20,010 nt of DNA from a virus, in the IMG/VR virus record IMGVR_UViG_3300042987_001630, positions 1 through 20,010 of that record, one strand, 5' to 3'. Numbering within the stretch: the stretch's first letter is position 1; the number at the start of each line of letters is the position of its first letter. Under the pieces are notes generated by a model. The model saw only the letters and a program-made list of their open reading frames with translations, made no database searches and was not told the origin of the DNA. Of this stretch, positions 3,168 to 20,010 are shown one piece after another. The position numbers were made by a program, and so were the translations under genes.

Positions 3168-3839
3168 TTATACACTTCTAAATATAGCAGCGTTCCAGTC
3201 CATTCTTTTTACAACACCTTGATTTGATGTTGTTTTATATTCTTTGTGGTTTAGATATTCTTTCGCTGCTTGTTTGAAGTTTCTCTTGTTTAGCCATTCA
3301 ATTGTTCTTGGACCAAGATCTCCACGAAATAGTCCATTTAATGAAGCAATTTTTACTTGAAGAGGTAAAGAATCAAAATCTTTGATAAGCCTTCTAGCAT
3401 CTTTTAATTTTTTGGTTATATCCGACTTTAATAAATCTTTAGCTTCCGAATCTGTGAGCCCTTTACTAAAATCTTCACCTGGTAATATTTTATGTCCATA
3501 TGCTATGGTATCTGCTCCACCTTCTAAACTTTTATGTGGAAACCATTTACCAGAAGCTTTATCAAATCCACCTTTTTTATAGTTTGGGTTGTTTTCAAAC
3601 TTTGATATTATGTTGGAAGCTCCATTTATAATCTCTGTGTCGGATGATGTATCTTTTACTTTTTTTGACAAATTTGGTTCTTTACTAACAAATGGAGTAT
3701 TTTGTTTTGACGGTTTTTCTGCTGCTTGAACTTGAGATGCTTGTGGCATAGTAAACTTTACCCGAGGTTCGTCTTGTACATCGGCGTTTATATCTTCCAC
3801 TACTTTGATCTCCTTGAGGATGGTTTTTAGTTTAATCAT
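3168..3839 (-). CDS. GH24-type phage lysozyme (muramidase) with N-terminal extension
   Basis: This protein is predicted to cleave peptidoglycan between N-acetylmuramic acid and N-acetylglucosamine. The catalytic region runs from about residue 72 to the end. E82 in ISKFENN is the candidate catalytic acid, and EGGADTIAYGHK (106-117) matches the GH24 segment with D110 and T111. The later FSKGLTDSEAKDLLKSDI and LPLQVKIASLNGLFRG segments follow the family helices. The first 70 residues are a polar, probably flexible extension without a signal peptide or membrane segment, so the enzyme would need a holin, or delivery within the virion, to reach its target. The N-terminus MIKLKTILKE is short and amphipathic, and its LKE resembles the LxE sites cut by T4-type prohead proteases. 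It is the only minus-strand gene in the window and diverges from the neck operon. Confidence 0.8.
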   Translation of the reverse strand: MIKLKTILKEIKVVEDINADVQDEPRVKFTMPQASQVQAAEKPSKQNTPFVSKEPNLSKKVKDTSSDTEIINGASNIISKFENNPNYKKGGFDKASGKWFPHKSLEGGADTIAYGHKILPGEDFSKGLTDSEAKDLLKSDITKKLKDARRLIKDFDSLPLQVKIASLNGLFRGDLGPRTIEWLNKRNFKQAAKEYLNHKEYKTTSNQGVVKRMDWNAAIFRSV

Positions 3840-3911: not shown

Positions 3912-5123
3912 ATGTCTAACCAAATAAATTATACAGTAGACCAGGACAGAGTACGTTGGCCAGGTTCTGGGTCGGCCATTACCACAGGAAGTTGTCCTTT
4001 TGGGTTTTTTGAATTGGACTCAATTTTTGCAGCCGATGGACAAGCCGCAGCTAAATGGGCAGCAACACGTCTTGGTTATCCTATAACCGACGTTGAAATG
4101 TTAGATACAAACTTTTATGCCTGTTTCGAAGAGGCTTGTTTTGAATATAGCGCCCAAGTAAATCAGTTCAACATTCGTAATAATATTGGAGTTCTTCAGG
4201 GTACAACAACAAATATAAATCTCACTCAAACAAACGTGGTAGGAAGTGGACTGCCATATATGATAAAAATTGCTCAGGGATATGGAACTGAATTTGGTGT
4301 AGGCGGTTTAGTTGACTGGAAATCTGGAAGTATAGATTTGAAAGAAGGCAAACAGCACTATGATCTGCAAGCTCTTTGGGGCAATGTTAGTGAAAGTTTT
4401 AATCGTATAGAAATACGTAGAATATTCCACGGACCATCGCCTGCATCCGCACGTATATACGACCCGTTTAGCATGACGGGTATGAGTTATAGCAATATTC
4501 TCAATGAAATGGGATTTGCTGGTTATTCTCCAGCAACACAATTTCTAATGACGCCAATTTTTGAAGATCTGCTTCGCATGCAAGCTATTGAATTCAATGA
4601 TTTGGTTCGTAAATCTGGATATAGCTTTGAACTTATTAATAACAAGCTTTCTATCTTTCCTATACCAACTTATGATTTTAAACTTCACTTTGAATATCTT
4701 CTTGGGACGGAAAGAGATGCTCAAGGCATAAGTCCATCTGGATCATACTACAGTGGGTCTCAAGCCATAGGATCCAATACTATTGGAGATTATAGTAATG
4801 TTCCATATAATGTTATACCATATTCTACGGTAAATTCTGTTGGAAAACAGTGGATAAGAAAATATTTCTTGGCTCTATGCAAAGAAGTTCTTGGAGCTAT
4901 ACGTCAAAAATACCAAAGTATTCCGATACCAGGAGCAGAAGTTACTCTTGACGGTGGCGAATTGAGACAAGAAGCATCCGCCGAAAAAGAAATACTTATT
5001 ACTCAACTTCGTGAAAATCTTGAAGCTTCTGGAAGAAAGGCTCAAATGGAAATGCGAGCCGCGGAGGCTGAACAAATGCAGCAAACATTGCAAAGAGTCC
5101 CTCTTGGAATTTATATCGGATGA
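3912..5123 (+). CDS. gp13: Neck / head-completion protein, gp13-like
   Basis: This 403-residue protein is probably the first neck protein, joining the portal to the tail after packaging. The N-terminal third has ATRLGYPITDVEMLDTNFYA (about residues 51-70) followed by CFEEACFEYSAQVN, a layout common in T4-type and cyanophage gp13-like adaptors: a strand carrying the V-E-hydrophobic motif, then a helix. The middle has the segment HYDLQALWG and a hydrophobic domain. The last 60 residues (EKEILITQLRENLEASGRKA and on) are strongly helical and rich in Glu, Gln and Met. It is longer than T4 gp13 (309 residues). The call rests partly on position, since gp14-like and gp15-like genes follow. Its stop overlaps the start of the nuclease gene by four bases (ATGA), so translation is probably coupled. 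Confidence 0.6.
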   Translation: MSNQINYTVDQDRVRWPGSGSAITTGSCPFGFFELDSIFAADGQAAAKWAATRLGYPITDVEMLDTNFYACFEEACFEYSAQVNQFNIRNNIGVLQGTTTNINLTQTNVVGSGLPYMIKIAQGYGTEFGVGGLVDWKSGSIDLKEGKQHYDLQALWGNVSESFNRIEIRRIFHGPSPASARIYDPFSMTGMSYSNILNEMGFAGYSPATQFLMTPIFEDLLRMQAIEFNDLVRKSGYSFELINNKLSIFPIPTYDFKLHFEYLLGTERDAQGISPSGSYYSGSQAIGSNTIGDYSNVPYNVIPYSTVNSVGKQWIRKYFLALCKEVLGAIRQKYQSIPIPGAEVTLDGGELRQEASAEKEILITQLRENLEASGRKAQMEMRAAEAEQMQQTLQRVPLGIYIG

Positions 5124-5539
5124 AGCCATTTTCAATATTTGACAATATTCTGACCAAAAACGAAAGGAGACGACTAAAAGACACCGGAATAAAAAGAACA
5201 CTTAAACCCAAAACAAATTTTACTTCTCTAGAAAGAAAGTATTATTTGATGTTAAAAGAAATTGGAGTTTATTATGTTCCTCAATATTACATCGGTGGCA
5301 GATACTACGACGCATATTTACCAGACCAGAATATTTTACTTGAATTCGATGGAAGTTTCTGGCATCCAAAAAGCAAAGACGACTGTAAGTATGAGTTTCA
5401 AAAAAAGAATATGGAAGTGGATGAACTCAAAAATAGATTGGCTGAGCAAAAAGGGATAAAAATAATACGTATAAGAGAAGAAAATCCTATAACCACGAAC
5501 GAAATGCGTCAATTAATTTTTAAAAAATCATGGGACTAA
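5120..5539 (+). CDS. PDDEXK-type (Vsr/DUF559-like) endonuclease
   Basis: This is a 139-residue small nuclease of the restriction-endonuclease-like fold. E38 lies in an N-terminal helix (TSLERKYYLMLKEIG). RYYDAYLPDQNILLEFDGSFW (61-81) gives the catalytic pattern D64, then E75-x-D77-G, with a trailing W-H pair as in Vsr and DUF559 proteins. The closing AEQKGIKIIRIRE (108-120) is the usual last strand of the fold. A Lys-rich N-terminus may contact DNA. It overlaps the gp13-like gene by ATGA and the gp14-like gene by ten bases, so it is fully embedded in the neck operon. It may be a free-standing homing-type nuclease, a repair enzyme or a recombination/packaging nuclease; the sequence does not decide between these. 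Confidence 0.72.
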   Translation: MKPFSIFDNILTKNERRRLKDTGIKRTLKPKTNFTSLERKYYLMLKEIGVYYVPQYYIGGRYYDAYLPDQNILLEFDGSFWHPKSKDDCKYEFQKKNMEVDELKNRLAEQKGIKIIRIREENPITTNEMRQLIFKKSWD

Positions 5540-6006: not shown

Positions 6007-7389
6007 ATGGCCTGGCGCGGAAACATAACAAAACCATCGGTAAATACTACTTACAACCCAGTAAGTAATGGGACAGAAATGTCCAGATCTAAAAAAACTG
6101 AGACTCAAGATGGTTCTTTACGTGTAAAAAACAGAGCATTTGCTGTAAGAAGAGACAAAGACAAAGAAAAGTCCCCATCTATAAATCTGATAGACATTGA
6201 CACCACCATATTGAGTTATATGGATACGGTGATAACACCGACTATCATAGACGCTGGCAGACAAGTAAAAGTTCCCATAAATTATGCTTCTCCAGAAAGA
6301 TGGAAAGCAATCAGAAAAGATGGATTTATTAGAGACAAAAACGGAAAGATTCAAACTCCAGTAATTGCATTCAGAAGAACAACAATGCAAAGAAACGATC
6401 AATTGTTAACCCTCAATCGTTATCTTCAATATCCTGTTGTAAAGCAATATTCCGAAAAAAACAAATATGATAAATTTTCCACTTTATCTGGATTTAAAAA
6501 AACAAAAGAAGTATATTCTGTTGCTATGCCCGATCATGTGATCATAAATTATGATTTTATTGTTTGGACAGAATTAGTTGAGCAAGGAAACAAGGTAGTT
6601 GAGGCAATAAATTTTTCAACTGAAGATTATTGGGGTGACAAAAATAAATTTAAATTCAGAACCAGTATAAGTGATTATAATTTTGAAACTACGGTTGAAG
6701 CAGAACAAGACAGAGTGGTAAAGACAACATTCACGTTAATGGTATACGCATATCTTCTTCCAGAAAAATACGAAAATTATAAATCTACGGTACAAAAAGC
6801 TTTTACACCAAGAAAAATCATATTTGATACAGAAATGGTTGGAAGCTTAGAAGACATGGAAGTTGCGTTGGCAAAAAAGCCAAAGGAAATTATAGAAGCG
6901 AAGTTGGGAGCTGGATTTGCTGGATTGGTTCAATTTGCAAATCTAAGCGGTGAAGCCGCTAGTGCATTTTCTGCTATGTCTTCTTTGTTTGCCGTAAGCT
7001 CAAGTCTAGTTGTAGAAGGTATAGAAACAGGATCTTTATCTCTTGGAGCTCTAGATCTTACAGGAGTAACTGGATCAGCAGCTTCTAGCTCCTTTGAAAC
7101 CGGAGAAATGTTGAATGTTTCTACTTTTGAAACTATTGACTCTATGCCAGAAAATCCTGCTCACGCAGTTATGTGGCTTGTATCAATTAAAGATGATACA
7201 AATTTCAAATCGGTTGAAGTTGCGGCCGGTTGGGATTCTGAATCTGTAAATTATTATGTGACAGAAGTATCTCAAATAGGTAGTGTTCCTGTCAACATGT
7301 CGGTAAATAATACAGGAGGTACGATTAACTTGGTGGCAAATCCATTGTCTGGAACTTGGACTATCAAGTATATAAGAATCGTAGTATAG
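6007..7389 (+). CDS. gp15: Tail completion / sheath terminator protein, gp15-like, with extra C-terminal domain
   Basis: This is probably the hexameric cap on the tail tube and sheath to which the neck binds. Residues 69-100 (LSYMDTVITPTI, then GRQVKVPINYASPERW) line up with T4 gp15 where it reads IRVPITYASKEHF. HVIINYDFIVWTELVEQGNK (177-196) matches the MIYELSIFTRYEDD strand-helix, and RVVKTTFTLMVYAYLLPE (236-253) matches its last strand, ending in Tyr/Pro. At 460 residues it is much longer than T4 gp15 (272). The surplus is a basic 60-residue N-terminal tail and an Ala/Ser-rich linker leading to a C-terminal domain at about 380-460. That domain is shared with the next three genes. The fusion would place about six copies of the domain at the head-tail junction. 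The core call is good; the fused domain's function is unknown. Confidence 0.72.
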   Translation: MAWRGNITKPSVNTTYNPVSNGTEMSRSKKTETQDGSLRVKNRAFAVRRDKDKEKSPSINLIDIDTTILSYMDTVITPTIIDAGRQVKVPINYASPERWKAIRKDGFIRDKNGKIQTPVIAFRRTTMQRNDQLLTLNRYLQYPVVKQYSEKNKYDKFSTLSGFKKTKEVYSVAMPDHVIINYDFIVWTELVEQGNKVVEAINFSTEDYWGDKNKFKFRTSISDYNFETTVEAEQDRVVKTTFTLMVYAYLLPEKYENYKSTVQKAFTPRKIIFDTEMVGSLEDMEVALAKKPKEIIEAKLGAGFAGLVQFANLSGEAASAFSAMSSLFAVSSSLVVEGIETGSLSLGALDLTGVTGSAASSSFETGEMLNVSTFETIDSMPENPAHAVMWLVSIKDDTNFKSVEVAAGWDSESVNYYVTEVSQIGSVPVNMSVNNTGGTINLVANPLSGTWTIKYIRIVV

Positions 7390-7391
7390 TT

Positions 7392-8261
7392 ATGCCTATA
7401 AATAAATTTAAAGGAGTAACTAGGTCAGAAAGAATAAATAATATTAGAAAAGCTGAGAAAAAACAATCTCAAGGAAAATCGGCTGGAATTGTACAATATG
7501 CAAGTAGACCATCGGTAAAATCATTTACCTCTTCCTTGGCTCCAGCTACCGGCGGGTTTGTTCAATACAAAGCAAATTATCTTACAAAAGAAGAAAGAAT
7601 AAAAAGTATAATAAAGTCCGAAGATCAGAATAATGACGTTGGTCTTGTTAAATATGAAAACAGAGCTTCGATAAAATCGTTTACGTCTTCTTTGTTGCCA
7701 GTGACTGGGGGATTTGTTCAATACAAAGCAAATTATCTTACAAAAGAAGAAAGAATAAAAAGTATAATAAGATCCGAAAAAATATTTTCAAAAGGTAGCA
7801 AAGGAAAATTTCCTGGTCTTATTCAATATGCCAATAATTCTTCTTATTCTCCTACGTCAAACACCGCATTCACTTCTTCTTTTGCTCCAACTGCAAGTTA
7901 TTATCAAACCAGTTCTCTAACCATCGGATCTTTGGATTTGCTTGGAGGAGGATCCACAGGATCGTTTGGAACAAATATATTCTCGGAAATTACCGCGTCC
8001 GGACCAGTCGATCAATTTTTGGATACCTATGGAAACGCTGCTGTGTGGTTGGTATCAATAAAGAGTGGATCTGCTTTGAAAACGAGTGAAGTTGTTGCTA
8101 CATGGGGAAGTTCTTCTATAAATTTCTATTCTACAGAAGTAAGTCAAATTGGAGATGTACCTGTATACATGTCAGCTACTAACCAGAGCGGAATTATAAG
8201 TTTGATAGCAAATCCATCATATGGCACATGGACCATTAAACTAATAAGAATGATGATATGA
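7392..8261 (+). CDS. Fibre-like protein with two internal repeats and the shared C-terminal domain
   Basis: I do not recognise a named family. I chose the ATG at 7392 (MPINKFKGVTRSERINN), two bases after the upstream stop, because the open frame before it is only a shadow of the gp15-like gene. The protein has 289 residues. The N-terminal half is basic and contains a repeated unit: SF/TSS, then GGFVQYKANYLTKEERIKSI, present twice about 52 residues apart, with weaker related units before and after (GIVQYASRPS, GLIQYANNSS). A Ser/Thr-rich linker follows. The last 80 residues are the domain shared with the neighbours, with AAVWLVSIK, TEVSQIGDVPV and GTWTIKLIR. The repeats suggest a fibrous or multi-binding head region that could dock on a symmetric virion part. 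It overlaps the next gene by ATGA. Confidence 0.7.
   Translation: MPINKFKGVTRSERINNIRKAEKKQSQGKSAGIVQYASRPSVKSFTSSLAPATGGFVQYKANYLTKEERIKSIIKSEDQNNDVGLVKYENRASIKSFTSSLLPVTGGFVQYKANYLTKEERIKSIIRSEKIFSKGSKGKFPGLIQYANNSSYSPTSNTAFTSSFAPTASYYQTSSLTIGSLDLLGGGSTGSFGTNIFSEITASGPVDQFLDTYGNAAVWLVSIKSGSALKTSEVVATWGSSSINFYSTEVSQIGDVPVYMSATNQSGIISLIANPSYGTWTIKLIRMMI
7557..7770 (+). repeat. Exact 58-bp direct repeat, two copies 156 bp apart
   Basis: Bases 7557-7614 and 7713-7770 are identical over 58 positions, starting tttgttcaatac and ending agtataataa. The offset of 156 bases is 52 codons, so the reading frame is kept. Exact DNA identity within a diverged protein repeat suggests a recent duplication or gene conversion. 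Confidence 0.9.
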
Positions 8262-8737
8262 TTGACGTTAATATATCAACAGCAAATAAAACGACGATGT
8301 ATGTGGACAAGACAAATACTGCTGATCTTGTTGCTACCGCTAGTATATCTGAAAATGTACAATCTTCTTCTGTATTTAGCGATACAGGAACATTAGCCGT
8401 TCCTTCGTTAAATATTGTTGGTGGAGGAGTGACTGGGTCGCTGTCAACAAGCGTTGTTGGTCAAGTGACTGCTTCTAGAGATATTGATTCAATACCAATT
8501 GAAAGTGGTAATTCGGTAAAGTGGTTTGTGTTTATAAATGATGGTCCTAGTTCAAGAGCGAATAAAGTTGTGGCAAGTTGGACAGATACTGGATCTGTAT
8601 TTTATAGTACCCAATTTAACGAAATAGGAAACGTACCTGTAGATTTTACCGTTTCTTCATCCGCTACAGATATTTATTTAAAAGCCGTTCCCTACTCAGG
8701 TAGTTGGACTATGAAATTTGTAAGGATTATGATATGA
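8258..8737 (+). CDS. Small fibre-like protein with the shared C-terminal domain (third copy)
   Basis: This is a 159-residue protein of unknown family. The start ATG overlaps the upstream stop as ATGA, which supports it over other starts. The N-terminal 45 residues are Thr/Ser-rich and polar. Then comes a short beta-like segment (LNIVGGGVTGSL) that is also found in the preceding protein as LDLLGGGSTGSF. The last 80 residues align with the domain in the gp15-like protein: SVKWFVFINDG, KVVASW, QFNEIGNVPVDF and SGSWTMKFVRIMI. It has no signal peptide, no membrane segment and no visible catalytic motif. Position and domain sharing suggest a structural accessory of the neck, collar or tail. It is separate from, but clearly paralogous to, its neighbours. 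Confidence 0.68.
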   Translation: MIDVNISTANKTTMYVDKTNTADLVATASISENVQSSSVFSDTGTLAVPSLNIVGGGVTGSLSTSVVGQVTASRDIDSIPIESGNSVKWFVFINDGPSSRANKVVASWTDTGSVFYSTQFNEIGNVPVDFTVSSSATDIYLKAVPYSGSWTMKFVRIMI

Positions 8738-9180
8738 GCAATACATATGGAATGAACAACCCGTTTATTGTACAAAACGGACTGATAGTAAATGCCAACG
8801 CTGTTGTCACAGGCAGTATATCATCATCTTTGGTTACGGCCAATCGATTTATTATTAAAGACCAATCCACCGTATATATGGATGCTAAATTGGCAACAGG
8901 AGTATCTTCTCCCCAAACAATTGATTCTTTTACAGGATCTCTTGGAAATAGCTGTAAATGGTTATTATCTATTAACGATGGAACAAACTTTGAAACCAGT
9001 GAAGTGATGTTTATTTGGAATCAAAATACAGAAGAAAGTAGATTTACTCAATATGGAACAAATGCTATAGGCACAGTTGATGGATTTATATCTGCTAGTA
9101 TGTCTAGTGGATACGTAAATCTTCACGCTGGCCCAAATGTAGGAACCTGGAATATAAAAATATTAAGGACAATCTTATAA
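8734..9180 (+). CDS. Small fibre-like protein with the shared C-terminal domain (fourth copy)
   Basis: The ATG at 8734 overlaps the upstream stop (ATGA) and gives a 148-residue product. An in-frame TTG at 8704 would be inside the previous gene and is less likely. The N-terminus (NNPFIVQNGLIVNANAVVTG, about residues 8-27) resembles the N-terminus of the giant fibre that follows (NEFIIRNGVSVLGSGSISG), so the two may share an attachment or nucleation segment. The C-terminal 80 residues form the most diverged copy of the shared domain, with NSCKWLLSINDGTNFETSEV and GTWNIKILRTIL, the first close to the gp15-like copy. The protein thus links the two fibre groups. The function is not known beyond a probable virion role. 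A short AT-rich hairpin with a T run overlaps its stop codon. Confidence 0.68.
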   Translation: MSNTYGMNNPFIVQNGLIVNANAVVTGSISSSLVTANRFIIKDQSTVYMDAKLATGVSSPQTIDSFTGSLGNSCKWLLSINDGTNFETSEVMFIWNQNTEESRFTQYGTNAIGTVDGFISASMSSGYVNLHAGPNVGTWNIKILRTIL

Positions 9181-9232: not shown

Positions 9233-12200
9233 ATGAGTAACGAATTTATCATAAGAAACGGTGTAAGCGTACTTGGTTCCGGTAGCATATCCGGAGAGTT
9301 ACTCGTATCTGGTAGTATAAGGTCTGATAACATAGCTTATCTTACCGCAAGCCACGCAATTACCGCTTCTTATGTAGAAGGTCTTCCTGCAAGTTCTTCT
9401 TGGGCAATAAATGCTGTTTCCGCATCCTTGGCAGATACAGCATCATATGCGGTATCTGCTTCGTATTTAATAGGATTACCAGCAACATCTTCGTGGGCTT
9501 ATAACGCAATAACCGCCTCTTATGCTCTCAACTCTTTAGGCTCTTCAAGTGGCACATCTGGAACAAGCGGAACATCTGGGACGAGTGGCACAAGCGGTAC
9601 TTCGGGTACATCTGGAACAAGTGGAACCGATGGTACTAGTGGAACAGACGGTACATCAGGAACGTCTGGTACTAGTGGGTTAAGCGGAACCGATGGTACT
9701 AGCGGAACAAGTGGAACTGATGGAACAAGCGGTACAGATGGTACTAGTGGAACAGACGGCACATCTGGAACGGATGGTACAAGTGGTACCGATGGAACAA
9801 GCGGAACATCTGGTTCAAGTGGCGCCAGTGGAACATCTGGTTCAAGCGGTACATCTGGAACGGATGGTACAAGTGGTACAGATGGAACCAGTGGAACAGA
9901 TGGTACAAGTGGTACCGATGGAACAAGCGGATCTTCTGGAACAAGCGGAACGAGTGGTACAAGCGGTACTAGTGGATCAAGTGGTACGTCTGGATCCAGT
10001 GGAACTTCAGGAACAAACGGAACAAGTGGAACCAGCGGAACCAATGGAACGAGTGGAACAGATGGAACCAGTGGAACAGATGGTACAAGTGGTACGTCTG
10101 GATCAAGCGGAACTTCTGGTAGCTCTGGTACATCTGGATCCAGTGGAACATCGGGATCCAGTGGAACTTCAGGAACAAACGGAACAAGTGGAACCAGCGG
10201 AACCAATGGAACGAGTGGAACAGATGGAACCTCAGGAACCTCAGGAACAAGTGGAACTGATGGAACAAGTGGCACATCAGGATCTTCAGGAACAAGTGGA
10301 ACGGATGGAACCTCAGGAACATCAGGAACGTCTGGAACGGATGGAACCTCCGGAACCAGCGGAACATCTGGCACTTCTGGAACAAGTGGAACGGATGGAA
10401 CATCTGGCACTTCTGGAACAAGTGGAACGGATGGAACTTCTGGTACAGATGGAACAAGTGGAACGGATGGAACTTCTGGTACAGATGGAACAAGTGGAAC
10501 CTCTGGAACAAGTGGATCAAGCGGAACTGACGGATCAAGCGGAACAAGTGGAAGTTCGGGAACATCTGGATCTAGTGGTACGGACGGCGCTGGATTTACA
10601 ACGGTAGCTAACGCCGGTCTTTATAGAATATTAATCTCAGACGGGTCGAATGATGCGGCTACGGCATCTGCTGGGTTGCTCTTCGACGATGTAAGTTTGA
10701 TTGTTTCGGGTGGTAACATAATGACCAACAAGATTACCGCTTCGATGTGGTATTTCTCTGGTAGTGAAACATCAAATGTAAGATTAGAAGTTTCCGCTTC
10801 TGGCGAACTTATTTTCAAAGGAGACAGTCAAGGAAACCTTCTTATAGTTTCTGATACAACTAAGTCGGCGGCTATTATGTCCGTTGGCGACTTGGAGACA
10901 AATCCACTGTTTGAAGTCTATTCGGACAAAGTTGTTCTTGGAAATTATGGACAAAATATATTTGTTGTAACAAGTTCTTACATTGGTATAGGAACTAACT
11001 CTCCGTCTCACAGTTTAGACGTTCACGGAGACGCACGAATAACAGGATCTCTTTACGCCGACGATATTACAGGATCTTTATTTGGCACAGCAAGTTGGGC
11101 TCTAAATTCTTTGACCGCTTCATACGCAATGAATGCGGGAGCAAGTGAATGGAACAATATATCTTCTAGCGTATCAAATACAAGTTCTTTTGCAGGAACC
11201 GCAAGTTATGCTAATTCAGCGTTAAGCGCTTCTTATTCTGGTACAGCCTCTTACGCATTAAACGCCGGAGCGAGTGTATGGAATAATATATCAGGAAGTG
11301 TATCAAGTACAAGCTCTTTTGCAGGCACAGCAAGTTATGCAGATTCAGCACTGAGTTCGTCTTATTCTCAAACAGCAAGTTATGTAAATCAGCTTAACCA
11401 AGATGTAGTTATTTCTGGATCCATAACCATAACAGGTTCAGCAAACTTTATTGGAGATAGTGGGTCGTTGATATTTTCTACAAATGCTGACACTCTTGAA
11501 TTGACAGGATCTTTATTGGTTACTGGTTCAATAGCACTTACAGGAAGTTTGAGTGTAAACGGAAATGTTGAAGCAACATCAAGTTGGGCATTAAATTCAA
11601 TTTCCTCTTCTTATGCGGTGACGGCTTCTTACGCATTAAGCTACTCTGGTACAAGTGGAACGGATGGTACATCTGGAACCAGCGGAACGGATGGAACAAG
11701 CGGTAGCAGTGGTACGTCTGGAAGCTCTGGAACTTCAGGCACAAGTGGCACGGATGGAACGAGTGGAAGTTCTGGAACAGATGGCTCAAGCGGAACGTCT
11801 GGATCTTCAGGAACTTCTGGTACAGATGGAACCAGTGGTTCAAGTGGTACGTCCGGTAGCAGTGGAACCGATGGTACGAGTGGTTCATCTGGAACTTCGG
11901 GCACAAGTGGAACAGATGGAACTTCAGGAACAAGCGGAAGTTCTGGAACATCCGGTTCCAGTGGAACGAGCGGAACTGATGGAACCTCCGGTACAAGCGG
12001 ATCTTCTGGCACAAATGGAAGTAGCGGTACATCTGGAACAGATGGAAGTAGTGGAACCTCAGGAACAGATGGTACATCTGGCACAAGCGGAACTTCTGGT
12101 ACTGATGGAACAAGTGGAAGCTCAGGAACCGCTGGATCTTCAGGAACATCTGGAACCGATGGTACTTCTGGAAGTAGTGGTACATCGGGAACATCTGGAA

Positions 12201-15200
12201 CTGATGGCACCTCAGGCACAAGCGGTACGGATGGAACCAGTGGAACCTCTGGAACGGATGGATCTTCTGGAACATCCGGAACAGACGGAACCTCAGGAAC
12301 AAGTGGTACGAGTGGCACTGATGGATCAAGCGGAACTTCGGGTACTGACGGAAGCTCTGGAACAAGTGGGACCGATGGAACGTCCGGTACAGACGGATCA
12401 AGCGGAAGCAGTGGAACTTCTGGCATAGATGGTACTGATGGAACGTCTGGTAGTTCAGGAACATCGGGAACAAGTGGTACCGACGGATCAAGTGGAACCT
12501 CTGGCACAGATGGCACATCGGGCACATCCGGCACAAGTGGAACCGATGGTTCAAGTGGAACATCTGGCACGGATGGCACTTCTGGATCTTCAGGAACATC
12601 AGGAAGTTCAGGCACGTCTGGTACAGATGGAACCAGTGGTTCTTCAGGAACAAGCGGAAGCTCAGGAACATCTGGAAGTAGTGGTACCAGCGGTACAGAT
12701 GGTACTTCTGGTTCAAGTGGTAGTTCAGGAACTTCTGGAACATCTGGCACGGATGGAACTAGCGGAACCAGTGGATCTTCGGGTACATCTGGATCATCAG
12801 GAACAAGCGGCACGGATGGAACATCTGGGTCTTCTGGTACAAGCGGCAGTAGTGGAACTTCTGGTACTAGTGGTACAGATGGAACATCTGGAAGTAGTGG
12901 AACGAGCGGTTCATCAGGAACATCTGGAACTGACGGCACCAGTGGTACTTCAGGAACTTCCGGTAGCTCAGGAACAAGTGGCACATCCGGAACAGACGGT
13001 ACAAGCGGATCTTCGGGTTCATCAGGCACCAGTGGAACTTCTGGAACGGACGGTACGTCGGGAACAAGCGGTTCAAGCGGAACATCTGGTAGTTCGGGTA
13101 CATCTGGAACCGATGGTACAAGTGGAAGCTCTGGAACAAGCGGGAGCAGCGGCACCTCGGGAACAGATGGAACTAGTGGAACAAGCGGTTCAAGTGGTAC
13201 ATCAGGCTCTTCAGGTACAAGTGGTACAGACGGAACAAGTGGATCTTCTGGGACTTCAGGCACAAGTGGAACTGATGGAACCTCAGGAACGTCTGGTTCT
13301 TCTGGAACAGACGGTACAAGTGGAAGCTCAGGAACATCCGGAACTTCAGGAACCTCTGGTAGCTCTGGAACATCAGGCAGCTCAGGCACAAGCGGAACTT
13401 CTGGAACCGATGGAACGTCGGGTACAAGCGGAACAGATGGTACAAGCGGAACAGATGGTACAAGTGGTACATCTGGTTCCAGTGGAACGAATGGTGCTGG
13501 ATTTACAACAATAGACAATGCGGGTCTTTATAGAATATTGATATCGGATGGATCAACAGATGCAGCCACTGCATCCGCTGGATTGTTATTTGATGATACA
13601 ACTTTAGTTGTTTCTGGCGGAAATATAATGACCAATAAAATTACCGCTTCAATGTGGTATTTTTCTGGAAGTCAAACGTCAAATGTTAGATTAGAAGTTT
13701 CAGCTTCTGGAGAATTAATATTTAAAGGTGACGAACAAGGAAACCTTCTTATAGTTTCCGATACAACAAAGTCCGCCGCTATTGTATCCATTGGAGATTT
13801 AGAAACGAATCCTATATTTCAAATATATGCAGATAAAGTTATAGCTGGAGAATATGGAAAAAATGTATTTGTTGTAACAAGTTCATATATAGGCGTTGGG
13901 ACTAATGCTCCGTCTTATAGTCTTGATATACACGGAGACGCTAGAGTAACAGGTTCTTTATATGCGAACAAAATAACAGGTTCTCTTTTTGGTACAGCAA
14001 GTTGGGCAATTAATTCTTTTACAGCATCATACGCTTTAAATGCTGGAGCTAGTGATTGGAATAACATATCTTCAAGTGTATCAAATACAAGTTCTTTCGC
14101 AGGAACAGCCAGTTACGCTGATTCGGCACTAAGCTCTTCTTACTCAATCACCGCTTCTTATGCTTTAAGTGGTGGAACTATAACAAGTTCTTATCAACTT
14201 AGTAATGGTGGTGGATTTGCATTTGATAATACAAATAACATAACAGTCAATGAACTGACCGCGTCGGCCATTAGAAATGATCTGGTCAGTGATCTAAATA
14301 TACTTGTTCAACATCCTTATGGAATATCTCTTGGCGACATAGACGGAGAAAAAATATATTTCCAAGGAAATGTTGGAAGCCCATCATTAAAATGGTATGA
14401 TAGTTCTGGAAATAGACTGATAACAATTGGGAACCATGATGCTTCTGGTTTTTATTATGATGTAGATGACACTCTTTCGACTGGCCATGTATTCAAAGTT
14501 TCTTCACAACCATATACAAACATTGTTACAATAACATCAGGTGGTTTGGATTTGGTTGGTAATTTGCATGTATCTTCCGGTGCAATAACTGGTTCTTTGC
14601 ATGGCACATCTTCATACGCCGTTACAGCAAGTTTTGCATTAACTCCATCTGGAACTAGTGGTACATCAGGAACAAGCGGATTAGATGGCACTTCTGGAAC
14701 AAGTGGTTCGAGCGGAACTTCTGGGACATCGGGTACTTCCGGTTCAAGTGGCACAGATGGAACGTCTGGATCTTCAGGAACAAGCGGAACAGACGGAACA
14801 TCAGGAACTTCTGGAAGTAGTGGAACTTCAGGAACAGACGGTACTTCCGGTACAGATGGTTCAAGCGGAACTTCTGGTAGCTCTGGTACATCTGGTACAA
14901 GTGGAACCGACGGAACAAGTGGAACGTCGGGTTCAAGTGGAACGTCAGGTAGTTCTGGAACAAGTGGAACTTCAGGAACATCCGGAACCGATGGGACCAG
15001 TGGCAGTAGCGGGACAAACGGAACTTCAGGATCATCAGGCACAAGCGGTAGTAGTGGTACATCAGGTACAGATGGTACAAGTGGAAGCTCTGGAACTTCT
15101 GGTTCAAGCGGTACATCAGGTAGTTCAGGAACCTCTGGAACATCAGGTACAGACGGTACAAGCGGAACATCAGGAAGTAGTGGTACATCTGGTAGTTCTG

Positions 15201-18200
15201 GAACAAGTGGAACTTCAGGAACATCCGGAACTGACGGAACAAGTGGAAGTTCAGGAAGTTCTGGTACGAGTGGTACAAGCGGTACATCGGGAACAGATGG
15301 TACTAGCGGATCGAGTGGGACTTCGGGTAGCTCTGGAACATCTGGATCGAGTGGTACAAGCGGATCTTCAGGAACGAGTGGTAGCAGTGGAACTTCTGGA
15401 AATGATGGGGCAAACGCGGTGGGAACCAGTTTGTGGTATTATGTTGCAGGAAATAAAGCTTCTGGCTCTGGTCAGTTAGAAGAAGTTGGAACGGGTGTTA
15501 ATTTCTCGGACCCAACAACGCTTTATATTAACAGAGTTGATCAAAACTCAACGAATTGGGAAGGTTATGTAACAGGATTGTTTAATGCTTCTGGAAAATT
15601 CCTCGTTCAAATTAGTCAAGAAAATGTTCCATCGACTTATGGAGTTTACAAGGTAACTGGACTTACTGTAAATAGTAATGGTGCAATGATAATGTCCGGA
15701 TTGACGGCTCTATCATACAACGGCGCATACTCAAATTCAACTTACTATAATGTATCGGTTATACCTTATCCATCCGATGGAACTTCTGGAAGTTCTGGTA
15801 CAAGTGGTAGTAGTGGAACGTCTGGGTCATCGGGAACCAGTGGAACCAGTGGTACGGATGGAACATCAGGAACTTCAGGCAGTTCTGGAACAAGTGGAAG
15901 TAGTGGCACATCAGGAAGCTCTGGTACAAGTGGAACCGACGGAACAAGTGGTACGTCAGGAAGCTCAGGAACTGATGGTACTTCGGGAACTAGTGGATCG
16001 TCGGGCACGTCAGGCTCAAGCGGTACGTCAGGAACTTCTGGTACAGATGGTACAAGTGGATCATCTGGTACTTCTGGTTCATCTGGAACTGATGGAACCA
16101 GTGGTAGCAGTGGAACTAGTGGTTCAAGCGGTACATCCGGATCATCCGGCACAAGCGGTACAGACGGTACAAGCGGATCGAGCGGAAGTTCGGGAACATC
16201 TGGGTCTAGTGGCACTTCTGGAACCGATGGTACAAGTGGATCATCGGGCACAAGTGGTAGTAGTGGAACATCAGGTACAGATGGTACTTCAGGAACGAGC
16301 GGAACGTCAGGCACGTCGGGTTCAAGCGGAACGTCAGGAACTTCTGGTACAGATGGCACAAGCGGCACCAGTGGAACATCTGGTAGTTCGGGAACTTCTG
16401 GTTCATCTGGAACAAGTGGAACCTCTGGAACAGATGGAACGTCTGGTTCTTCGGGAACAAGCGGTACTTCAGGAACAGATGGAACATCGGGTACAAGTGG
16501 TACGTCAGGAAGCTCTGGAACTGATGGCACAAGTGGAAGTTCAGGAACTTCAGGTTCAAGTGGTACTAGCGGAAGCAGTGGAACTTCTGGTACAGACGGT
16601 ACAAGTGGATCGTCTGGAAGCAGTGGAACTTCGGGATCTTCTGGCACCAGCGGTACAGACGGCACGTCAGGAAGCTCTGGTTCATCGGGTACTTCAGGTT
16701 CTAGTGGAACTAGCGGAAGCAGTGGAACATCTGGCACAAGCGGAACGGATGGTACATCTGGTAGTTCGGGGACCAGCGGATCTTCTGGTACAAGCGGATC
16801 AAGTGGAACGTCCGGAACAAGCGGAAGCTCAGGAACATCGGGAAGTAGTGGTACAGATGGTACAAGTGGGTCGTCTGGAACGTCTGGATCTTCTGGAACA
16901 AGCGGTACAGATGGAACTAGTGGAACATCGGGTTCATCTGGTACAAGTGGAAGCAGTGGAACCTCAGGAACAGATGGAACAAGTGGCACATCTGGAACTG
17001 ATGGTACAAGCGGAAGTTCAGGAACCTCAGGAACAAGTGGAACTTCTGGAACGGATGGTACATCAGGCACCTCTGGAACTTCTGGAACATCTGGCAGCTC
17101 GGGTACAAGCGGAACGGATGGAACGTCTGGCACGAGTGGTAGTAGCGGAACGTCTGGCAGTTCGGGTACATCTGGAACTGACGGTACATCTGGAACAAGT
17201 GGAAGCTCTGGAACTTCTGGAACTTCTGGGACATCGGGTACTTCCGGTTCAAGTGGTACAGATGGAACAAGCGGTTCAAGTGGTACATCAGGTTCTTCAG
17301 GCACTTCAGGTTCTTCTGGCACAAGTGGAACATCAGGAACAGACGGAACCTCTGGAAGTAGTGGAACATCGGGCACAAGCGGAACGGATGGTACATCTGG
17401 TACCAGTGGATCAAGCGGAACTTCAGGTTCATCTGGAACAAGTGGTACGGATGGCACAAGTGGAACATCGGGAACTTCAGGAAGCTCAGGAACAAGTGGA
17501 ACCGATGGAACTTCTGGTTCAAGCGGCACAAGCGGGACCAGCGGTACGTCGGGTAGCTCTGGTACAAGTGGATCGTCAGGAACAAGCGGAACTTCAGGCA
17601 CCTCAGGTACAGACGGAACATCCGGAACAAGCGGTTCAAGCGGCACTTCGGGAAGTTCTGGAACAAGCGGTACATCAGGAACAGATGGAACATCTGGATC
17701 ATCAGGCACAAGTGGTACATCAGGTAGTTCAGGAACATCTGGTACTAGCGGAACAGATGGAACAAGTGGATCTTCTGGTACAAGTGGAACCTCTGGTACA
17801 TCCGGGTCTTCAGGAACATCGGGAAGCTCAGGTACATCTGGAACGGATGGAACTTCTGGAAGTAGTGGTTCTTCAGGAACGTCTGGATCGAGTGGAACCT
17901 CTGGCACAGACGGAACATCAGGTACAAGTGGCACCTCCGGTAGTTCGGGAACATCTGGATCTTCGGGTACCAGCGGATCTTCGGGAACGTCAGGTTCAAG
18001 TGGAACCAGTGGAACAGATGGTACAAGCGGAACTTCAGGTACCTCTGGTACCGATGGAACTTCTGGTAGCTCTGGAACAAGTGGCACATCTGGTACTTCT
18101 GGTTCATCGGGAACAAGCGGAAGTAGTGGAACTTCGGGAACAGATGGAACATCAGGTACAAGCGGTAGTTCAGGAACAAGTGGATCGAGCGGTACATCAG

Positions 18201-20010
18201 GCAGCTCAGGAACTAGCGGCACAGATGGTACGAGCGGAACATCTGGAAGTTCAGGTACATCTGGAAGTAGTGGAACTTCGGGAACAGATGGAACATCAGG
18301 TACAAGTGGTTCAAGTGGTACATCCGGTAGTTCAGGAACTTCCGGATCGTCTGGAACAAGCGGCACAGATGGAACTAGTGGAAGCTCTGGAACATCTGGT
18401 TCAAGTGGAACATCAGGATCTTCAGGAACAAGTGGTACCTCCGGAACAGATGGAACGTCTGGTACAAGTGGTAGCAGCGGCACATCAGGTAGCTCTGGAA
18501 CGAGTGGTAGTTCAGGAACTTCTGGATCATCTGGAACAAGCGGCACAGATGGAACGAGTGGTTCTAGCGGAAGCTCTGGTACGAGCGGATCATCTGGAAC
18601 ATCTGGTACAGACGGCACATCAGGAACTTCTGGAACAAGTGGGAGCAGCGGAACTAGTGGCTCAAGCGGTACATCAGGAACAGATGGAACAAGTGGTACG
18701 TCGGGTTCAAGTGGTACAAGCGGAAGCTCAGGAACTTCTGGTTCAAGCGGTACGTCTGGTACGGATGGTACGAGTGGAACATCAGGAAGTTCAGGCACTT
18801 CTGGAACAAATGGAACGTCTGGAACGTCTGGAACGTCTGGAACTTCAGGCTCAAGCGGTACATCAGGATCTTCAGGAACAAGTGGTACATCCGGCACTTC
18901 CGGAACAGATGGAACGTCTGGAACAAGTGGTACTTCTGGAGCTGGTACTATAAATGGCGGTACTCAATACTACGCCGCTATATTCGATGGTGCCACGGTA
19001 CTAACAACCGGGTCAATATACAATAGTGGTTCGCTTGTTGGTATAAACAAATCAACACCAAGTGCAACACTTGATGTAAGTGGAAGTGTATTTGTTACGG
19101 GTTCTATTGCCATAAATAGCGGAGTTATTACGACGAATAATCCGTCTTTGGATATCACACAAAGTTGGAATAATGCGGCGACTAATTTCACCACAATCCG
19201 AGCAAATGTAACGAATACAAATAGCGGAGCTTCTTCTAAATTAGTAGATTTGCAGGTCAATGGAGCCAGTAAATTGGGTGTTAATAAAAACGGAATGATT
19301 TATGCGGCTGGTGGATTTAATTTTGATGGGGGATATGGAAGCAGTAAATCTTTTACTCATAATGGAACCACCACATTCCTTATAGGCACAAATTTGCAAG
19401 TTAATGGGGCAAACAATGGTATTGCTCCGTTTGTAGGAATAGCCGACTGGTCACAAGGAAATTCCAGCACAGTACGCACAGGTTTCTCAATAGATGTGAC
19501 AGGAGCCGATGTTTCCAGCACCGCATCAATGCTGATGGATTTGCAATCTGGAAGCATTTCAAAATTTAATGTAACAAAATACGGAAATGTATTTGCTTCG
19601 GGGTCAATTACAGCATTAAATGGTTTCACAGGTTCATTATTTGGAACATCAAGCTATTCTATCACTTCGTCATATGGACTATCGTCCAGTTTTTCATCCA
19701 CATCTTCTTATATAAATCCTCTAATACAAGATGTATATCTTACAGGATCACTGGATATAACTGGCTCAATATACTATAATAATCCGACGTTTACTACTTC
19801 AAGTACAAATGCCCTTGTTTGGAACGCTACAACAAATGAAGTAGAATATACACTGCCTTCATATCTTACATCCGCAAAAAATGTATTGCGTGTAGGAACT
19901 TCTGGTAGTGTTGGCGTTGATTATTATTCAGTTAAAGCGGCAGTTGACAGTATTACAGACGCGACATCAACAAATCCATATGTTGTTCAGGTTCGTGCTG
20001 GTTTATACAA
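9233..20010 (+). CDS. Giant collagen-like fibre protein, at least 3592 residues, open at the window end
   Basis: One frame runs from the ATG at 9233 to the last base without a stop. Residues 1-106 are a head region with an FIIRNG start and ITASY/SSWAINA repeats. Collagen-like Gly-X-Y tracts occupy about 107-451, 806-1420, 1807-2055 and 2183-3235 (115, 205, 83 and 351 triplets). Residues 452-805 and 1421-1806 are globular segments beginning with a duplicated 209-residue module (GAGFTT onward) that contains GIGTNSPSHSLDVHGDARIT. Residues 2056-2182 form a separate small domain without similarity to these. Residues 3236-3592 contain another VGINKSTPSATLDVSGS motif, TASY-type repeats and, at the very end, DYYSVKAAVDSITDATS with VVQVRAGLY, which looks like the first rung of a pectin-lyase-like beta-helix. 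This is probably a trimeric tail or collar fibre carrying receptor-binding or glycan-degrading parts further downstream. No Shine-Dalgarno is seen. Confidence 0.88.
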   Translation, partial: MSNEFIIRNGVSVLGSGSISGELLVSGSIRSDNIAYLTASHAITASYVEGLPASSSWAINAVSASLADTASYAVSASYLIGLPATSSWAYNAITASYALNSLGSSSGTSGTSGTSGTSGTSGTSGTSGTSGTDGTSGTDGTSGTSGTSGLSGTDGTSGTSGTDGTSGTDGTSGTDGTSGTDGTSGTDGTSGTSGSSGASGTSGSSGTSGTDGTSGTDGTSGTDGTSGTDGTSGSSGTSGTSGTSGTSGSSGTSGSSGTSGTNGTSGTSGTNGTSGTDGTSGTDGTSGTSGSSGTSGSSGTSGSSGTSGSSGTSGTNGTSGTSGTNGTSGTDGTSGTSGTSGTDGTSGTSGSSGTSGTDGTSGTSGTSGTDGTSGTSGTSGTSGTSGTDGTSGTSGTSGTDGTSGTDGTSGTDGTSGTDGTSGTSGTSGSSGTDGSSGTSGSSGTSGSSGTDGAGFTTVANAGLYRILISDGSNDAATASAGLLFDDVSLIVSGGNIMTNKITASMWYFSGSETSNVRLEVSASGELIFKGDSQGNLLIVSDTTKSAAIMSVGDLETNPLFEVYSDKVVLGNYGQNIFVVTSSYIGIGTNSPSHSLDVHGDARITGSLYADDITGSLFGTASWALNSLTASYAMNAGASEWNNISSSVSNTSSFAGTASYANSALSASYSGTASYALNAGASVWNNISGSVSSTSSFAGTASYADSALSSSYSQTASYVNQLNQDVVISGSITITGSANFIGDSGSLIFSTNADTLELTGSLLVTGSIALTGSLSVNGNVEATSSWALNSISSSYAVTASYALSYSGTSGTDGTSGTSGTDGTSGSSGTSGSSGTSGTSGTDGTSGSSGTDGSSGTSGSSGTSGTDGTSGSSGTSGSSGTDGTSGSSGTSGTSGTDGTSGTSGSSGTSGSSGTSGTDGTSGTSGSSGTNGSSGTSGTDGSSGTSGTDGTSGTSGTSGTDGTSGSSGTAGSSGTSGTDGTSGSSGTSGTSGTDGTSGTSGTDGTSGTSGTDGSSGTSGTDGTSGTSGTSGTDGSSGTSGTDGSSGTSGTDGTSGTDGSSGSSGTSGIDGTDGTSGSSGTSGTSGTDGSSGTSGTDGTSGTSGTSGTDGSSGTSGTDGTSGSSGTSGSSGTSGTDGTSGSSGTSGSSGTSGSSGTSGTDGTSGSSGSSGTSGTSGTDGTSGTSGSSGTSGSSGTSGTDGTSGSSGTSGSSGTSGTSGTDGTSGSSGTSGSSGTSGTDGTSGTSGTSGSSGTSGTSGTDGTSGSSGSSGTSGTSGTDGTSGTSGSSGTSGSSGTSGTDGTSGSSGTSGSSGTSGTDGTSGTSGSSGTSGSSGTSGTDGTSGSSGTSGTSGTDGTSGTSGSSGTDGTSGSSGTSGTSGTSGSSGTSGSSGTSGTSGTDGTSGTSGTDGTSGTDGTSGTSGSSGTNGAGFTTIDNAGLYRILISDGSTDAATASAGLLFDDTTLVVSGGNIMTNKITASMWYFSGSQTSNVRLEVSASGELIFKGDEQGNLLIVSDTTKSAAIVSIGDLETNPIFQIYADKVIAGEYGKNVFVVTSSYIGVGTNAPSYSLDIHGDARVTGSLYANKITGSLFGTASWAINSFTASYALNAGASDWNNISSSVSNTSSFAGTASYADSALSSSYSITASYALSGGTITSSYQLSNGGGFAFDNTNNITVNELTASAIRNDLVSDLNILVQHPYGISLGDIDGEKIYFQGNVGSPSLKWYDSSGNRLITIGNHDASGFYYDVDDTLSTGHVFKVSSQPYTNIVTITSGGLDLVGNLHVSSGAITGSLHGTSSYAVTASFALTPSGTSGTSGTSGLDGTSGTSGSSGTSGTSGTSGSSGTDGTSGSSGTSGTDGTSGTSGSSGTSGTDGTSGTDGSSGTSGSSGTSGTSGTDGTSGTSGSSGTSGSSGTSGTSGTSGTDGTSGSSGTNGTSGSSGTSGSSGTSGTDGTSGSSGTSGSSGTSGSSGTSGTSGTDGTSGTSGSSGTSGSSGTSGTSGTSGTDGTSGSSGSSGTSGTSGTSGTDGTSGSSGTSGSSGTSGSSGTSGSSGTSGSSGTSGNDGANAVGTSLWYYVAGNKASGSGQLEEVGTGVNFSDPTTLYINRVDQNSTNWEGYVTGLFNASGKFLVQISQENVPSTYGVYKVTGLTVNSNGAMIMSGLTALSYNGAYSNSTYYNVSVIPYPSDGTSGSSGTSGSSGTSGSSGTSGTSGTDGTSGTSGSSGTSGSSGTSGSSGTSGTDGTSGTSGSSGTDGTSGTSGSSGTSGSSGTSGTSGTDGTSGSSGTSGSSGTDGTSGSSGTSGSSGTSGSSGTSGTDGTSGSSGSSGTSGSSGTSGTDGTSGSSGTSGSSGTSGTDGTSGTSGTSGTSGSSGTSGTSGTDGTSGTSGTSGSSGTSGSSGTSGTSGTDGTSGSSGTSGTSGTDGTSGTSGTSGSSGTDGTSGSSGTSGSSGTSGSSGTSGTDGTSGSSGSSGTSGSSGTSGTDGTSGSSGSSGTSGSSGTSGSSGTSGTSGTDGTSGSSGTSGSSGTSGSSGTSGTSGSSGTSGSSGTDGTSGSSGTSGSSGTSGTDGTSGTSGSSGTSGSSGTSGTDGTSGTSGTDGTSGSSGTSGTSGTSGTDGTSGTSGTSGTSGSSGTSGTDGTSGTSGSSGTSGSSGTSGTDGTSGTSGSSGTSGTSGTSGTSGSSGTDGTSGSSGTSGSSGTSGSSGTSGTSGTDGTSGSSGTSGTSGTDGTSGTSGSSGTSGSSGTSGTDGTSGTSGTSGSSGTSGTDGTSGSSGTSGTSGTSGSSGTSGSSGTSGTSGTSGTDGTSGTSGSSGTSGSSGTSGTSGTDGTSGSSGTSGTSGSSGTSGTSGTDGTSGSSGTSGTSGTSGSSGTSGSSGTSGTDGTSGSSGSSGTSGSSGTSGTDGTSGTSGTSGSSGTSGSSGTSGSSGTSGSSGTSGTDGTSGTSGTSGTDGTSGSSGTSGTSGTSGSSGTSGSSGTSGTDGTSGTSGSSGTSGSSGTSGSSGTSGTDGTSGTSGSSGTSGSSGTSGTDGTSGTSGSSGTSGSSGTSGSSGTSGTDGTSGSSGTSGSSGTSGSSGTSGTSGTDGTSGTSGSSGTSGSSGTSGSSGTSGSSGTSGTDGTSGSSGSSGTSGSSGTSGTDGTSGTSGTSGSSGTSGSSGTSGTDGTSGTSGSSGTSGSSGTSGSSGTSGTDGTSGTSGSSGTSGTNGTSGTSGTSGTSGSSGTSGSSGTSGTSGTSGTDGTSGTSGTSGAGTINGGTQYYAAIFDGATVLTTGSIYNSGSLVGINKSTPSATLDVSGSVFVTGSIAINSGVITTNNPSLDITQSWNNAATNFTTIRANVTNTNSGASSKLVDLQVNGASKLGVNKNGMIYAAGGFNFDGGYGSSKSFTHNGTTTFLIGTNLQVNGANNGIAPFVGIADWSQGNSSTVRTGFSIDVTGADVSSTASMLMDLQSGSISKFNVTKYGNVFASGSITALNGFTGSLFGTSSYSITSSYGLSSSFSSTSSYINPLIQDVYLTGSLDITGSIYYNNPTFTTSSTNALVWNATTNEVEYTLPSYLTSAKNVLRVGTSGSVGVDYYSVKAAVDSITDATSTNPYVVQVRAGLY
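9551..10585 (+). repeat. Gly-X-Y tract 1 (115 triplets)
   Basis: The tract consists of 9-bp coding units GGN-(ACN or Ser)-(Ser or GAY). Its length is divisible by nine, consistent with an unbroken register. It is the richest tract in GTD words, with Asp recurring about every 2-5 triplets over much of its length, and it contains several GTN words and single GAS and GLS words. Confidence 0.93.
9992..10231 (+). repeat. Exact 78-bp direct repeat inside tract 1
   Basis: Bases 9992-10069 and 10154-10231 are identical over 78 positions, starting ggatccagtgg and ending cagatggaacc. The offset is 162 bases, or 18 Gly-X-Y triplets, so both frame and triplet register are kept. Elsewhere the tracts differ at synonymous sites, so this looks like a recent unequal-recombination product. 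Confidence 0.88.
10586..11212 (+). repeat. Duplicated 209-codon module, copy 1
   Basis: This module begins directly after tract 1 with GAGFTT and runs to FAGTASYA. It aligns without gaps to copy 2 at 13493-14119, with about 30 amino-acid differences in 209, most of them conservative. It contains TASMWYFSGS, VRLEVSASGELIFKG, a GIGTNSPSHSLDVHG motif and GTASWA/TASYA repeats. Confidence 0.9.
11648..13492 (+). repeat. Gly-X-Y tract 2 (205 triplets)
   Basis: This is a continuous collagen-like coding repeat in the same frame as tract 1. It is richer in GSS words, has wider Asp spacing and contains no proline. It includes one GID and one GTA word and ends in GTN just before the second copy of the duplicated module. 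Confidence 0.93.
13493..14119 (+). repeat. Duplicated 209-codon module, copy 2
   Basis: This is a gapless counterpart of 10586-11212, again starting exactly at the end of a Gly-X-Y tract. DNA differences are mainly at third positions, so selection has kept the protein. Downstream of 14119 the two copies diverge; copy 2 continues into a segment with HPYGISLGDIDGEKIYF that copy 1 lacks. Confidence 0.9.
14651..15397 (+). repeat. Gly-X-Y tract 3 (83 triplets)
   Basis: This is the shortest collagen-like tract. It opens GTS-GTS-GTS-GLD and ends GTS-GND-GAN as it passes into the small domain at 15398-15778. It again contains no proline or lysine, and Gly holds every third position. Confidence 0.92.
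15779..18937 (+). repeat. Gly-X-Y tract 4 (351 triplets, 3.16 kb)
   Basis: This is the longest tract, with 1053 residues made almost only of GTS, GSS and GTD. The length is an exact multiple of nine. Asp words recur at roughly 7-11 triplets where I counted them near the 3' end. Local higher-order copies are present, such as a 44-bp identical pair at 18119-18162 and 18263-18306 (16 triplets apart) and a near-identical block recurring 180 bases apart around 18329 and 18509. Confidence 0.93.
18119..18306 (+). repeat. Exact 44-bp direct repeat inside tract 4
   Basis: Bases 18119-18162 and 18263-18306 are identical (ggaagtagtggaacttcggg and on). The offset of 144 bases is 16 whole triplets. It is a second sign of register-preserving duplication within the collagen-like coding region. 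Confidence 0.8.

Follow-up and report, generated by a model that had tools for sequence, protein, structure and literature searches.

The window that we analyzed, a whole IMG/VR virus record of 20,010 bp, carries a fiber gene whose product we read, with a probability of about 0.62, as a modular and presumably homotrimeric receptor-binding fiber of a T4-like phage with an aquatic bacterial host, with collagen-type rods and a beta-helix tip. What is new here is that the glycine register of the rods is guarded, that proline is avoided in them, that in-tract insertions and deletions come in 9-bp units, and that proline-free and proline-rich tracts have switched repeatedly. The main interest of this class of fibers is the selection against proline.

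As originally predicted, a single frame is open to the window end. The fiber gene runs on the plus strand, as do all of its parts, from position 9233 to 20008 and comprises 3,592 stop-free codons; it is truncated at its 3′ end by the end of the record, and no further part of it lies inside. The N-terminal domain (9233 to 9550; MSNEFIIRNG..., with TASYA repeats) aligned at 44 to 85% with those of four relatives (L009, L019, L027, and L040; alignment A1). It is followed by four uninterrupted Gly-X-Y tracts in alternation with globular segments: tract 1 with 116 triplets (9551 to 10594), tract 2 with 206 (11648 to 13501), tract 3 with 85 (14651 to 15415), and tract 4 with 352 (15779 to 18946). 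Globular segment 1 (10595 to 11647; FTTVANAGLYRILISDGS...TASYALSYS) aligned at 65% with segment 2 (13502 to 14650), the first part of which duplicates it and the second part of which differs, and at 42% with a tract-adjoining segment of the relative L093; segment 3 (15416 to 15778) has 121 aa. Comparison of the globular segments, the third included, with Pfam and PHROGs gave nothing reliable. Weak CBM49 and DUF matches were taken as chance, and an AF2 model of segment 1 was discarded (pLDDT, 34). The C-terminal shaft segment (18947 to 19765) bears a partial likeness to the tail fibers of cyanophages S-TIM5 and S-TIM54 and their relatives (∼30%; E values of 1e-8 to 9e-11), and the frame ends in the start of a predicted right-handed beta-helix domain (19766 to 20008), which is cut by the end of the record. 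Long antisense frames, such as one of 1,043 aa at 15766 to 18897 on the minus strand, coincide with the repeats, and we attribute them to the repeated codons.

The fiber gene is placed within a T4-like head/neck module. Upstream of it, on the same strand, are genes for a T4-like major capsid protein gp23 (29 to 1513), a head-tail adaptor or neck-like protein (3912 to 5123; phrog_211, E = 3.9e-10), and a conserved 460-aa neck-region protein (6007 to 7389). The gp23 match (PF07068, E = 1.5e-78) assigns the phage to the T4-like lineage; the protein is 58.8% identical to that of Flavobacterium phage immuto and 58.0% identical to that of Microcystis phage Mel-JY01, and the 460-aa protein has ∼40% identity to one immuto protein over 56% of its length. 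The regions upstream of the genes are A/T-rich and have no clear Shine-Dalgarno sequence, which, together with the kinship with immuto, weakly hints at a Bacteroidota host. The module holds several other genes. A DNA/RNA nonspecific endonuclease (1602 to 2384; PF01223) with a signal-peptide-like N terminus lies amid the head/neck genes, followed by a LamG/ConA-like lectin protein (2400 to 3155) with a C-terminal SPTPTPTP and by a lysozyme-like gene (3168 to 3839) on the strand opposite to its neighbors; a homing-endonuclease-like ORF (5120 to 5539; MTES_1575/HNH families) is flanked by neck genes. Four successive ORFs at 6007 to 9180 (460, 301, 159, and 158 aa) have in common a C-terminal domain of ∼90 aa that ends in GTWTIKxIRxxI (29 to 44% identity), and in a two-sequence comparison this domain weakly matched (E = 0.001) the C terminus of a 2,702-aa collagen-like fiber (L244).

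The register is unbroken through all four tracts, which sum to 759 triplets, and a run of 352 triplets without a break greatly exceeds what chance would give; the original prediction held as to the number of tracts and their lack of proline, while its count of 754 triplets did not. Proline is absent from all four tracts and occurs 21 times among the 1,315 globular residues. The tracts are made almost exclusively of GTS, GSS, and GTD triplets, and their charged residues are 123 acidic and no basic ones (no Lys or Arg). In textbook collagens, stability comes from proline, hydroxyproline, or charge pairs; imino acids and opposite charge pairs are absent from all four tracts. The long uninterrupted Gly-X-Y sequence that is typical of collagen-like proteins is present, with a PF01391 score of 174 bits against a cutoff of 27.2 (4e-52 for tract 1), and this Pfam match is driven by composition. 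When compared with the PDB, the tracts matched animal collagens by composition only, and we rejected homology. GTS alternates with GSS or GTD along the tracts (lag-1 autocorrelation, −0.44 to −0.61); we saw this hexad alternation clearly in the window fiber but rejected it as a hallmark of the class, for which the median was only −0.22. GTD triplets are spaced quasi-regularly in tracts 2 to 4 (coefficient of variation [CV], 0.31 to 0.41 versus 0.81 to 0.91 in shuffled tracts), with an interval of about 8 triplets in tract 4 (CV, 0.31 versus 0.91), which reflects either the history of a repeat unit or a selected spacing of charges.

To assess selection on the tracts, we compared five related pairs of sequences. 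The 727 glycine codons differed by 215 synonymous changes and a single nonsynonymous one, compared with 215 and 54 at X, 198 and 48 at Y, and 345 and 140 in the globular segments. The frame is therefore translated and its glycine register is guarded. A different bias concerns proline. Across the low-proline tracts (n = 266; 25,971 triplets), there were 19 proline codons and 16,924 serine TCN codons, although proline is a single T-to-C transition away from Ser-TCN and half of the serine codons are so placed. Other neighbors were much better represented: Asn and Gly, as neighbors of Ser-AGY, occurred 1,586 and 368 times per 11,196, and Ile and Ala, as neighbors of Thr, occurred 644 and 1,314 times per 16,171. 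Further, C/T was the commonest third-position change in the related pairs (199 cases), and no first-position C/T change yielded proline. Because proline is one transition away and yet nearly absent, unlike the other neighbors of serine and threonine, these codon counts argue that it is selected against in low-proline tracts, not just missing.

No relatives turned up among viral contigs when the globular segments served as direct queries, or among cultured phages when the N-terminal domain or globular segment 1 did. Relatives were gathered by means of the upstream 460-aa gene as an anchor (best 80 of 140 matches in viral contigs). Loci with at least 54% identity in this gene (L009 to L043) mostly have a proline-free multitract ORF downstream; among more distant ones (L054 to L073), several have GPT/GSQ/GAT tracts with 14 to 19% proline. 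The N-terminal domain of the fiber has 172 relatives in viral contigs. Three loci (L019, L027, and L099) combine it with the multitract layout, one (L009) has both the N terminus and the first tract in common with the window fiber, and a complete orthologue (L099/L100; 3,412/3,409 aa) has 12 tracts with 590 triplets. In viral contigs, a degenerate GTD-GTS pattern was found in at least 120 stretches; cellular genomes, 257 Gb in all, contained only 12, of which few were real tracts. The search for other proline-free fibers that had been proposed was productive: at least 158 loci, those in the fetched set, had 20 or more proline-free triplets; the set is skewed to the search pattern. The complete ORFs of tract-bearing relatives reached 3,463 aa, and the longest proline-free runs in the fetched set had 542, 458, 430, 424, 412, and 362 triplets, so that the tract length of the window, once called extreme, is surpassed. 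An incomplete literature search for the strings GTSGTS and GSSGTS found no phage paper among the matches listed. Many waterborne phages carry fibers of this kind, and the window fiber is a member of a widespread and apparently undescribed variant of phage collagen-like fibers. On a 297-kb contig (G012), the end of one locus (L033) and the start of another (L093) both lie inside a Gly-X-Y tract, seemingly of one fiber gene, and this contig may represent a circular jumbo-phage genome that was opened within the repeat.

Proline-free and proline-rich tracts occur beside the same domain. A 117-aa connector domain (DPGxG...) adjoins tracts that range from 0 to 24% proline; 27 of the 93 connector-adjoining tracts had <0.5% proline and 35 had at least 15%. 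A quick tree of this domain, with many open forks, contained at least nine changes of tract label, and for the “free” class at least four were forced by supported branches. For instance, L057 (17% proline) lies beside L064 (2%). The connector domain is also present in tail proteins of the cultured phages HTVC010P and DSL-LC01.

The original prediction had pointed out that each tract length is a multiple of nine bases. This is true, but it is a tautology for whole triplets, and we rejected it as informative within the window; the informative form is the insertions and deletions between phages. Among 49 near-identical ORF pairs, all 8 distinct in-tract indels were multiples of 9 bp, compared with 0 of 6 outside the tracts, and tract 1 differs between the window and L009 by many such indels. 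The flanking identity of the eight in-tract indels was 2 to 26 bp in four cases, which are hard to ascribe to assembly, and >90 bp in the other four, which could be assembly products. These four are one reason to ask whether repeat-mediated misassembly fused fiber genes or changed tract lengths; the contigs of relatives also often terminate within tracts, and in one 96.7-kb contig (L095 on G016) the collagen-like genes are split into several frames within tracts, perhaps by long-read indel errors or by real decay. We consider such an artifact highly improbable. No exact repeat in the window reaches 99 bp, the longest having between 77 and 98 bp, so that a typical short-read assembly would be unlikely to collapse the repeats. 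Moreover, the frame and glycine register are unbroken all through the fiber gene, two near-identical complete ORFs (L099 and L100) lie on different contigs, and a second lineage (L110/L370) has the N-terminal domain, tracts, and C-terminal beta-helix segment in a single ORF.

The 3′ end, which was to be located, lies beyond the record, but C-terminal homologues indicate how the protein probably continues. The window ends with 79 residues that form only the first part of the beta-helix domain and are ∼73% identical to L370. Homologues of these residues extend 1,074 to 1,117 aa further, from which we estimate that the complete protein probably has ∼4,680 aa and that its stop codon would lie ∼3.3 kb beyond the window. 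In a model of the C-terminal segment of L370, the chain forms a right-handed beta-helix (pLDDT, 70), and the folds that Foldseek matched to it were those of pectin methylesterase, alginate epimerase, and phage tailspikes; sequence searches of Pfam and PDB with the beta-helix homologue gave nothing significant. The best reading of the missing C terminus, from the L370 homology and model, is a right-handed beta-helix tip. The same beta-helix occurs on a fiber without tracts (L371), and tip and rod are therefore separate modules. Fibers with no or short Gly-X-Y tracts bear the tip in L371, L372, and L374, one of them on a 318-kb contig, and relatives of the tip occur in uncultured phages of 460 to 640 kb. 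A Peptidase_S74 domain is present at the C terminus of the tract-bearing L013 and L093, and L093 also has an Mtd_N domain at its N terminus, both being arrangements known from tail fibers; the window ends before its own C terminus. The S74 chaperone is known from trimeric fibers. The claim of a giant collagen-like phage fiber is supported by these domains, the T4-like context, the orthologues with the same N terminus, and the beta-helix C-terminal homologues.

We propose that, behind an N-terminal attachment domain, the chain has four extended rods of collagen type with beta-rich nodules between them, and that the rods would act as spacers holding the beta-helix tip, at the missing C-terminal end, away from the virion. 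The fiber would be a trimer that binds a receptor, and its place on the virion is deduced solely from the order of the genes. If the extended rods rise by ∼0.29 nm per residue, the value measured for the prophage collagen EPclA (PMC3368898), tract 4 would measure ∼306 nm and the four tracts together would have a contour length of ∼660 nm. Selection retains glycine at each third position and favors small polar residues instead of proline at X and Y, and the gain or loss of whole triplets alters rod length, so that reach can evolve with the register intact. Without proline, a long helix might escape slow cis-trans folding steps.

A collagen-type trimer is favored because S74 domains occur in relatives, because the tracts exchange with GPT tracts, and because of their loop-free length. 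Three points count against a plain triple helix: there are no imino acids, there are no charge pairs, and proline is avoided, which such a helix does not predict, as proline normally stabilizes it. The escape from slow cis-trans folding proposed above might reconcile these points. Proline avoidance would also suit a reading in which the nodules are connected by Gly/Thr/Ser linkers that are flexible, unfolded, or O-glycosylated and form a polar brush; third-residue glycine and the missing proline would then be there for flexibility, for solubility, or as a glycosylation motif. The all-acidic polar composition without charge pairs fits as well. We regard this as unlikely, because glycine is under selection: a flexible chain does not need strict third-position glycine over 352 triplets, nor the ratio of 215:1 at glycine compared with ∼4:1 at X and Y, and the tracts exchange with GPT-rich ones beside one connector domain. 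Polyglycine-II bundles like those of S16 gp38 or snow flea antifreeze protein, formed within or between chains, would also explain the avoidance of proline, since glycine at each third residue with nonimino X and Y is their signature. Known bundles, however, consist of 6 to 13 short helices joined by loops (PMC8409303), whereas the tracts here run for up to 352 triplets free of loops, turns, or loop-like breaks and vary freely in length. No protein of this kind was among the matches listed to solved structures in a search governed by composition, and we consider this possibility, raised by the original prediction, quite improbable. Selection on glycine, counterselection of proline, and exchange with proline-rich tracts narrow the choice between triple helix and flexible linker, with the collagen-type rod as the more probable.

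More tentatively, at somewhat below even odds, proline-counterselected collagen-like rods may form a large, nearly virus-restricted class of imino-free, trimeric rods of hundreds of nanometers, perhaps fast folding, that switch with a proline-rich form. These phage tracts keep every glycine over hundreds of triplets without the textbook stabilizers of collagen. They also offer a natural experiment: one connector domain stands beside both proline-free and proline-rich rods, and there are near-identical phages whose only difference is the length of the rod. If the tracts are triple helices, they would provide a proline-free, unhydroxylated collagen that could be put to use in bacteria, as well as a simple model of the tuning of fiber reach by phages; if not, they would represent another fold with glycine at each third residue.

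Among known systems, the Escherichia coli prophage collagens, which are broadly of this kind, are trimeric triple-helical rods with a rise of ∼0.29 nm per residue, as seen by electron microscopy and circular dichroism (PMC3368898). EPclA of E. coli O157 prophages, FibU of Staphylococcus aureus phage 80-alpha, and gp12 of SPP1 are virion proteins that likewise have Gly-X-Y tracts between globular domains, with lengths that vary by whole triplets as in the window group (PMC3368898). Their collagen segments, as reported, are far shorter (111 residues in EPclA, 31 in FibU, and within 64 aa in gp12) than the tracts of up to 352 triplets in the window, where the tracts are all proline free and under selection against proline. 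S16 gp38 and snow flea antifreeze protein resemble the window fiber in having third-residue glycine without proline, but theirs are short looped helices in place of hundreds of unbroken triplets. S74-chaperoned fibers and beta-helix tailspikes are comparable through the S74 domains of the window’s relatives and a similar beta-helix C terminus, although the shaft of the window fiber is mostly Gly-X-Y rod. Fibers of marine relatives (L054 to L073 and L290 to L368) and the annotated collagen proteins of the Actinomycetia phage DSL-LC01 likewise alternate tracts with nodules and have the neck-region gene or the connector domain in common with the proline-free group; many of their tracts contain ∼10 to 30% proline, mostly as GPT, whereas those of the window contain none.
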